DNA of 58,900 nt, taken from assembly GCA_002869695.1 (NCBI GenBank), contig PKUD01000170.1:1-58900 (forward strand). The letters are read 5' to 3'. Position 1 is the first letter of the stretch, and the number at the start of each line of letters is the position of its first letter. The notes beneath the pieces were generated by a model. It was not told where the DNA came from. It saw only the letters and a list, made by a program, of their open reading frames with translations, and made no database searches. The DNA comes from Desulfuromonas sp. GTDB taxonomy: Bacteria > Desulfobacterota > Desulfuromonadia > Desulfuromonadales > Geopsychrobacteraceae. The translations under genes were made by a program, and so were the position numbers. Shown one piece after another: positions 57,467 to 58,900 of the stretch.

Positions 57467-57658
57467 GTTTGACGCTGGTTAATGCCCATTTATCTCAACC
57501 GAAAATCTGCCGCGCTGCCAGACCCTTTTTTCCCGCCCAGCTTTGCCGGAAAAATTCCAGCCATACGCTCTCTCCGTTTGCAACAAAAGTCACCCAAAGA
57601 GAAGGCAAACCATTGTCGGGCGAAGAAATACAGGTATTTTTAGTGACATTAATCAAAG

Positions 57659-57692
57659 AATAGTCCACAGGTGGACGTTGAATAGTCTACAG
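57659..57692 (+). promoter_or_regulatory. Paired 12-bp direct repeats, candidate activator sites
   Basis: AATAGTCCACAG (57659-57670) and AATAGTCTACAG (57681-57692) differ at one base and are 22 bases apart start to start, two helical turns. They lie about 90 bases upstream of the sigma-54-like element, the usual position for an enhancer-binding activator. The first copy also overlaps a short palindrome, GTCCAC-AG-GTGGAC (57663-57676). Confidence 0.5.
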
Positions 57693-57750: not shown

Positions 57751-57767
57751 TTGGCACAGCTATTGAA
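57751..57767 (+). promoter_or_regulatory. Sigma-54-like promoter of the repeat-protein gene
   Basis: TTGGCACAGCTATTGAA carries the -24 element TTGGCAC and a -12 element TTGA in place of TTGC, at the correct spacing. The transcription start would be near 57778, about 50 bases before the gene. The C-to-A change in the -12 dinucleotide lowers confidence. Confidence 0.5.
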
Positions 57768-57826
57768 ATAGTAAATGGGCAAGAAGATTGAAAGCATACT
57801 AAACAAACCCTGAATGGAGGATGATC

Positions 57827-58294
57827 ATGAAAAGCCTGACCTATTTTACCCTGACCGGATTTTTCGCCCTATCGCTATATCTCTTTTCTGCAGCCAGCCC
57901 GATCGAACTTGCCGCGACTGACACCCCACGCTTGGACGACAGGGAGCTGGGGATTGGTGAGTACAGCGAGCAAGCCTACAACGGAGTCCCGCGACTGGAT
58001 GACAAAGAACTGGGGATTGGCGATTACAGTGAGCAGGCATACAACGGTGTCCCGCGCCTCGACGACAAGGAACTCGGGATCGGCGATTACAGTGAGCATG
58101 CCTATCACGGTGTTCCCCGACTGGATGACAAGGAACTGGGGATCGGTGATTACAGCGAGCAAGCCTACAACGGAGTCCCGCGACTGGACGATCGCGAACT
58201 GGGCATCGGCGATTACAGTGAGCATGCCTATCACGGTGTTCCGCGCCTCGACGACAAGGAACTGGGTATTGGCGACTACAGTGAACGCGCCTGA
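57827..58294 (+). CDS. Secreted acidic tandem-repeat protein
   Basis: A 155-residue protein with a typical signal peptide (MKSLTYFTLTGFFALSLYLF, cleavage near residue 24-30), then six copies of a 21-residue unit. The consensus is PRLDDKELGIGDYSEQAYNG plus V; copies 3 and 5 have EHAYHG, copies 1, 2 and 4 have EQAYNG, and the last ends SERA at the stop. Nothing else is present, so the mature protein is essentially repeat. Each unit is net negative and carries two aromatic Tyr and several Asp/Glu. ATG 57827 was chosen because GGAGG ends six bases upstream. I do not recognise the family. Possible roles include a metal-binding, adhesive or fibre-forming surface protein, or a repetitive precursor peptide; none is shown by the sequence. 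Confidence 0.75.
   Translation: MKSLTYFTLTGFFALSLYLFSAASPIELAATDTPRLDDRELGIGEYSEQAYNGVPRLDDKELGIGDYSEQAYNGVPRLDDKELGIGDYSEHAYHGVPRLDDKELGIGDYSEQAYNGVPRLDDRELGIGDYSEHAYHGVPRLDDKELGIGDYSERA
57926..58291 (+). repeat. Six tandem 63-bp coding repeats
   Basis: Five full 63-bp units and a shortened sixth (about 51 bp) encode the 21-residue unit. Copies differ largely at synonymous positions, so the protein sequence seems conserved. A 30-base stretch encoding DYSEHAYHGV is identical in copies 3 and 5, suggesting exchange between units. Confidence 0.9.
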
Positions 58295-58516: not shown

Positions 58517-58900
58517 TTACATTTCCGCACCTCTAGTCTGGCGCCACACCATCACCCTCAGGCCCGCGATGCCAAGCAACAACAATAATGCCAAGGCTTG
58601 ATACGGGAACTTAAGGGAGTAAACGACAGGGACCAACACCCCCCTGGTCAGCAAACGAAGTGACTCATGATCCCGTATGTAATCGGCAATGGGCGGTGAG
58701 TAGCTATAATAGAGTTCGACAAACTCCCGACCGACGCTGTTGGTCAGCAGATGCTCGTCCCGGAACTGGCGGAGCAGAGCGACATCTTCATGCAGGGCAC
58801 TGCCATAAGCCGCCGTCGCAATGAAGCATCCACCTCCACCTCCACCGCCTGAAGGAACCGGGTCCGGCGTCACGGTGGGAACACCTGGGTCGACAATCCG
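58517..58900 (-). CDS. CFI-box C-terminal domain protein, 5' end outside window
   Basis: The C-terminal end of a larger protein; the frame remains open to the edge of the window (about 127 residues seen). A Pro/Val-rich stretch and seven glycines lead into [16 protein letters not shown], followed by [39 protein letters not shown] and a hydrophobic segment near the end, then basic residues. This is the CFI-box ([10 protein letters not shown]) C-terminal sorting-like domain, seen at the end of secreted or surface proteins in Geobacter and relatives. The Gly-rich hinge, Cys and final membrane helix suggest processing or anchoring. The N-terminal function cannot be seen. An apparent GTG at 58873 is internal. 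Confidence 0.8.

Follow-up and report, generated by a model that had tools for sequence, protein, structure and literature searches.

An exported protein of 155 residues, dominated by acidic tandem repeats, is encoded on the forward strand at positions 57827..58294 of the window, which is the whole stretch of 58,900 nucleotides analyzed here and forms the entire contig C107 of a Desulfuromonas genome. Regulation of its gene by a sigma54-type promoter with paired upstream elements is well supported at the level of DNA sequence. Taken as a whole, the proposed reading has a probability of about 0.5: the gene would specify an exported, disordered acidic repeat protein that is induced by stress and whose role, though not its sequence, resembles that of ZraP or SilE. 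The promoter, a paralogue and a candidate regulator are additions to what an earlier note on this DNA had described.

Gene and Repeat Array

The gene (ORF and translation) is assigned the ATG at 57827 as its start, since the Shine-Dalgarno sequence GGAGG (57816..57820, +) lies six bases before it, while a second in-frame ATG at 57821 directly abuts that sequence. The signal-peptide region of about 24–28 residues (57827..57910, +) aligns with the N-termini of the kin proteins, with a cleavage site placed by eye only, and forms a hydrophobic helix in both AlphaFold2 models. Roughly ten residues (near SPIELAATDT) stand between the signal peptide and the first unit; the array does dominate the protein, as the earlier note had it, but the description "only repeats" leaves out this short segment. 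Five complete 63-bp units of 21 residues each follow (57926..58240, +; Tandem Repeats Finder and unit comparison), and translation and unit comparison place a sixth at 58241..58291 (+), where the stop falls at SERA*. The proposed six 21-residue repeats are therefore five full 21-mers and a last unit of only 17 residues. Tandem Repeats Finder gives the window gene a period of 63, 5.6 copies, 80% matches and 0 indels, and the unit consensus is PRLDD(R/K)ELGIG(E/D)YSE(Q/H)AY(N/H)GV. The units end, in order, in EQAYNG, EQAYNG, EHAYHG, EQAYNG, EHAYHG and ERA* (Q, Q, H, Q, H, then the truncated form), so the alternation of EQAYNG and EHAYHG once described is not strict.

Differences between the units are mostly synonymous, as had been noted: pairwise dN is 0–0.12, dS runs from 0.55 to saturated, and comparison of units 2 and 4 shows 8 synonymous codon changes and no non-synonymous one. 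The low dN between units supports the view that selection holds the sequence and stops short of proving it, because gene conversion between units may contribute.

The gene stands alone, with a divergent trpE-like gene (by eye) on one side and a convergent gene (58517-58900, −) on the other. The latter carries a CFI-box-CTERM domain (NF041770, E 1.5e-31) and is cut by the contig end.

Composition, Predicted Structure and Family Tests

The earlier description of a secreted, acidic protein is borne out by the export signal and the low pI. Across 15 mature proteins, approximated by removal of the first 24 residues (a set without L008 and L107, both of which contain Cys, and without L011), pI is 4.05–4.51, Cys is absent and GRAVY is −0.41 to −1.31. 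The charge-hydropathy line places all 15 computed proteins among the disordered ones. AlphaFold2 gives a mean pLDDT of 49.8 and a pTM of 0.18 for the window protein alone, and 47.0 and 0.12 with four sequences; neither low-confidence model contains strands or a confident fold, and predictions from 1 or 4 sequences are unreliable and weak evidence of disorder. Composition and models together suggest that the window protein is probably intrinsically disordered.

No family match was found for the window protein in Pfam, NCBIfam, PADLOC or PDB (Pfam and NCBIfam matches were all below cut-off), in agreement with the earlier note, which recognised no family with this unit. Neither ZraP nor Metal_resist-LTXXQ is among the Pfam and NCBIfam matches listed for the window protein and its kin, and the window protein is a member of neither the ZraP nor the SilE family. 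Matches of the kin to NCBIfam were likewise all below cut-off. The Pfam assignments of two kin that pass a cut-off were rejected as sums over repeats. L043 matches Otospiralin (PF15182) with 61.9 bits (cut-off 27; E 5.2e-17), of which two stretches pass alone at E up to 1, the best being 21 residues long; Otospiralin is absent from the Pfam matches of the window protein, and the other nine kin proteins tested against Pfam have no such match. L134 passes the Pfam cut-offs for PRD, NMU and DUF4859, with no stretch passing alone.

Relatives and Spread

A paralogue with seven units lies in the same genome (L002/L031, contig C212), its units being more divergent (dN up to 0.22). This paralogue and the kin in other genomes exclude a chance origin of the repeat gene. 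A protein search found a match in 8/147 genomes, the window's own included; a ten-sequence profile at E up to 0.001 was positive in 13/136 genomes of the order and, with the limit set to 0.0001, in 12/277 genomes of the class. All positive genomes belong to the window's own family, Geopsychrobacteraceae, judged by its Desulfuromusa members: four loci in MAGs of Desulfuromusa make up the named matches, and NCBI places this genus in the family. The sole match outside it in named genomes, on the strand opposite a murF-like gene (by eye) in L141 (labelled Gemmatimonadetes), was set aside as chance. The plasmid, phage and viral collections searched contained no relative.

Kin proteins have one to nine units (by eye), with only two in L007 and L010. 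Units differ greatly between species, from the LDDRELGIGEYSEQA type through EDRVGINQYGELASNDSTLP, NPRLDEEFGPGNYEEQAFY and VNFDRELGTYDDINDLAS, while signal peptides and acidic composition remain similar. Many kin have a core of the ExGxGD/N kind in units of 17–21 residues; it is not kept in L042, L113 and L134. Apparently, only charge, hydrophilicity, the short core and the architecture of repeats are conserved, so that the unit can drift fast between species and yet stay uniform within a gene.

Several loci have features of their own. The repeat gene at L038:5358-5560 looks degenerate, with an apparent frame break near the last unit, and that at L107:309-641 has decayed units. The loci L043, L045 and L046 come from one genus; here a porin-like gene (by eye) and a gene for an FG-GAP-type protein (Pfam, L043) stand ahead of the repeat gene, with an ABC-F-like gene behind it in L045 and L046. 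In L034 it stands before a carboxymuconolactone decarboxylase gene.

Promoter and Paired Upstream Elements

Three features precede the window gene on the forward strand. A distal upstream element, AAAGAATAGTCCAC (57655..57668; 9/11 matches), lies 22 bp above a proximal one, GTTGAATAGTCTAC (57677..57690), which matches the element GTNGAATANTCNAC at 11/11 positions, and a sigma54-type promoter, TGGCACAGCTATTGAA (57752..57767), begins 75 bp past the start of the proximal element. Among 16 member upstream regions from 13 genomes (L039, which starts inside the gene, was left out), a sigma54-type site scoring at least 9/12 occurs in 14/16, vs 17/208 control gene starts from the same loci. With 10 or 11 of 11 matches, the element occurs in 12/16 member upstreams vs 9/208 of these controls, which are all gene starts of at least 200 codons and include kinase genes sharing the region. 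With the best match taken within 55–95 bp, the element stands 75–79 bp before the sigma54-type TGGCAC in 13/14 members and 89 bp before it in L035, where the sigma54-type site is also weaker; the element itself is weak in L032 (8/11) and L046 (9/11). A distal copy is found 21–23 bp further up in 25/25 loci (22 bp in 18; scores 7–10 of 11), a count partly favoured by the method because the best match in a short range is taken. On this sequence comparison it is very likely that the promoter is common to the repeat-gene members.

The two members lacking a sigma54 promoter (2/16) are L031, the window's paralogue, and L041; both adjoin a LysR-type gene (that of L041 by eye). At L031:9442-11007 and L041:8273-9568, from two genera, a second class of repeat genes is seen, divergent from similar LysR-type genes.

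By itself, the element does not reach significance in the genome of the window: there are 4 exact sites vs about 1.6 expected (our own arithmetic) and, with one mismatch, 20+15 matches vs 12+13 with the pattern reversed. Weight is therefore given only to its position and to the combined pattern of elements and sigma54-type site. The combined pattern, partly built from this very site, occurs once in the window and 0 times in 100 shuffles. A further element site, at C77, falls within an ORF and was disregarded.

Genome Search with the Promoter Pattern

The combined pattern found 18 sites in 136 genomes with 0 reversed controls, and another form of it found 18 sites in 44 genomes of the family, again with 0 reversed controls. 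The union is 21 sites, nine of them founding members, which are no independent proof because the pattern was built from member promoters; the other 12 are what the search adds. Exported repeat genes stand behind 12/21 sites (the nine members, L125, L134 and the degenerate L131). Two repeat genes (L113/L125 and L107/L131) were unreported by the A1 profile search, first seen beside the kinase and then matched by the pattern; the L134 protein was found by the promoter pattern alone.

Outer-membrane efflux genes stand behind 4/21 sites: one in the window's own genome (G000:C136) and one in G007:C69, both by Pfam OEP, and those of G021 and G013 by eye. The site in the window's own genome belongs to a CusCB-type efflux system, in which a CusB-like gene with a heavy-metal-binding domain (HMBD) follows. 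On the same contig (L101:3961-4250), the same promoter layout is seen before a small putative lipoprotein ORF ending CPSCGYEFDVDRYGH, which stands ahead of the CusC/CusB-type genes. The remaining sites precede TetR plus carboxymuconolactone decarboxylase genes similar to that of L034 (2/21; L122, L136), a tautomerase gene (1/21), a gene for a His/Met-rich exported protein (1/21) and a MerR-like gene outside the family (1/21), perhaps by chance. The genes at L121, L123, L124, L128 and L129 were identified by coordinates. At L135:882-1400, a small exported His/Met/Asp-rich protein with the same promoter is encoded in an apparently frame-broken gene, convergent with a CopB-like gene (by eye).

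Kinase and NtrC-Type Regulator

The same element precedes a histidine kinase gene. It scores 10 or 11 of 11 in 21/21 family loci with complete upstream regions, and the reversed element never exceeds 8. The 21 usable loci come from 24 family loci fetched (L054 and L055, motif not found, and L069, with 17 nt upstream, being left out) among the best-scoring 30 fetched and cover only part of the 44 family genomes; L100 and L118 are duplicates of L056 and L073. In other families, the element precedes the kinase in 1/6 loci. The kinase gene of the window's genome lies on contig C21 with the element before it (C21:1399), separate from the contig of the repeat gene.

The partner of this membrane histidine kinase is an NtrC-type regulator with receiver, sigma54-activation and HTH_8 domains; in L044 both proteins match the AtoS/AtoC and ZraS/ZraR models only below cut-offs. 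In seven loci (L033, L036, L037, L038, L042, L044 and L113), the repeat gene is divergent from the kinase and regulator genes. HtrA, TlpA or CcdA genes follow the kinase operon in the first six of these (HtrA of L044 and TlpA of L036 by Pfam, the others by eye). In L113, a different repeat gene occupies the same slot beside the kinase. In genomes of the Desulfuromusa genus group and in two of another group (g7), the repeat gene is flanked by an AEC-type transporter gene on one side and the divergent kinase operon on the other. At the level of sequence, the repeat gene has the ZraPSR-like combination of a sigma54 promoter and upstream elements in common with a kinase/NtrC-type operon. Control of the repeat gene by this kinase/NtrC pair is likely on such grounds of gene order and shared sites. 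From position alone, we infer that the element may be paired with this regulator.

Kinase relatives with E up to 1e-30, paralogues included, are present in 135/136 genomes of the order. Possession of the kinase is thus no guide to the presence of the repeat gene; G001, of the same genus, has the kinase, and the repeat gene was not detected there. Kinase relatives adjoin CusCB-like genes in L110 (Pfam) and in L111 and L115 (by eye).

Proposed Role and Alternatives

A role in metal or cell-envelope stress is favoured over a fibre because the control region resembles those that heavy-metal pump genes and genes for a stress-sensing pair have in related bacteria from sediment. The gene is probably part of such a response. 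Under metal or envelope stress, the membrane histidine kinase and the NtrC-type sigma54 activator would act through the paired elements, and the activated regulator would switch on both the kinase operon and the repeat gene. The repeat protein might then accumulate outside the inner membrane, where its many carboxylates could buffer metal ions or hold damaged proteins in solution, as a sponge of the kind that ZraP or SilE provides elsewhere. Either effect of the carboxylates is possible; as a molecular activity, the sponge (for metal or protein) is a guess, and a doubtful one. The metal idea of the earlier note gains indirect backing from the promoter common to efflux genes, CusCB-type in the window's own genome. 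The link to copper runs through the promoter only, because the mature window protein, with 4 His, 0 Met and 0 Cys, offers a poor ligand set for Cu(I)/Ag(I). Two kin are richer in such residues, L113 (6 His, 6 Met) and L134 (9 His).

In E. coli, zraP is divergent from zraSR. The layout in Desulfuromusa and its neighbours is alike; the window protein differs from ZraP in being made of acidic repeats with no Pfam or NCBIfam match, and, unlike in ZraPSR, its gene and that of the kinase are found on separate contigs in the genome of the window. According to the part of PMC7657598 that was available, ZraP is small and exported, and its activation depends on a sensor kinase and a response regulator of the sigma54-dependent kind; ZraR is also argued there to serve envelope stress rather than zinc resistance. 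In Desulfovibrio alaskensis, an excerpt of PMC8836040 indicates, copper strongly lowered zraP instead of raising it. These two reports weaken a simple ZraP parallel. SilE, which is small, disordered and located in the periplasm and is associated with an efflux complex of Cus type, is called a molecular sponge in the accessible text of PMC5008109. The composition and models of the window protein (AlphaFold2, charge-hydropathy) fit, but do not prove, a disorder like that of the apo form of SilE/PcoE, whereas SilE binds through His/Met motifs, in which the window protein is poor.

A general envelope-stress protein with no metal role, which would regulate HtrA or the kinase or be a decoy substrate for either (CpxP-like feedback), is the best of the alternatives and is unlikely. 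The HtrA, TlpA or CcdA genes that follow the kinase operon in several relatives, and the place of the repeat gene between kinase and transporter, would suit it. The promoter common to efflux genes and the many genomes with kinase relatives and no detected repeat protein count against it.

Less likely still is an extracellular structural polymer under sigma54 control, whose repeats would stack as a beta-solenoid or a curli-like amyloid fibre. Curlin (CsgA/CsgB) is an exported protein with repeats of about 20 residues and a QxGxGN core. The window protein is likewise exported, with repeats of similar length, an ExGxGD/N core shared in kind by many kin with units of 17–21 residues, and a stretch, ELGIGDYSEQA, reminiscent of the curlin motif QxGxGNxA. 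Sigma54 has moreover been argued to control the bacterial exterior centrally (PMC3162934, as far as its available text goes). Yet the window protein is strongly acidic, has no Pfam Curlin match at E up to 10 and shows no strands in either low-confidence model; the core is lost in three kin, two of the proteins have two units only, and curli-type secretion genes were not seen beside members (by eye). The fibre or surface-layer role suggested in the earlier note is accordingly unsupported.

A repetitive precursor, cut by proteases in its spacers to free near-identical acidic peptides (signal or antimicrobial), would fit the cassette architecture and the 13/18 aligned proteins that end exactly at the same C-terminal core Ala as the window protein (by eye), like a released peptide, but is improbable: the spacer shrinks among kin from about six residues to about one (L043, L045, L046) with no common cleavage site seen by eye, no dedicated protease or peptide exporter was seen beside members (by eye; some have HtrA, a generic candidate), and typical antimicrobial peptides are not acidic, unlike these units.

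The preferred reading, a stress-induced acidic sponge, may extend to a whole class of stress-regulon effectors, a joint claim that is speculative and has the odds against it. One promoter type, one signal-peptide type and often one genomic slot would be combined with a hypervariable cargo of lineage-specific, homogenised arrays of acidic units of 17–21 residues, such as LDDKELGIGDYSEQA, EDRVGINQYGELA, VNFDRELGTYDDINDLA, DYGDDVLEHTWTMNDKGP and INQDEIGYYVDEELHS. Selection would preserve only bulk physics (charge, length and sticker spacing), and the product would be a disordered periplasmic sponge, conceivably a condensate or a metal-buffering gel made alongside a Cus-type pump.

Significance

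The literature searched, which includes the available portions of PMC4641369, PMC2725144, PMC8836040, PMC7657598 and PMC5008109, yielded nothing on these repeats or this regulon, which does not prove that such a report is absent. The present analysis places an orphan family of exported repeat proteins, in a form open to test, within a sigma54 two-component regulon whose operator is defined and is also found before efflux genes of Desulfuromonadales from sediment. If the protein is indeed a sponge, an effector of periplasmic stress can exchange its sequence and still retain promoter and composition, and homology searches would miss such cases.
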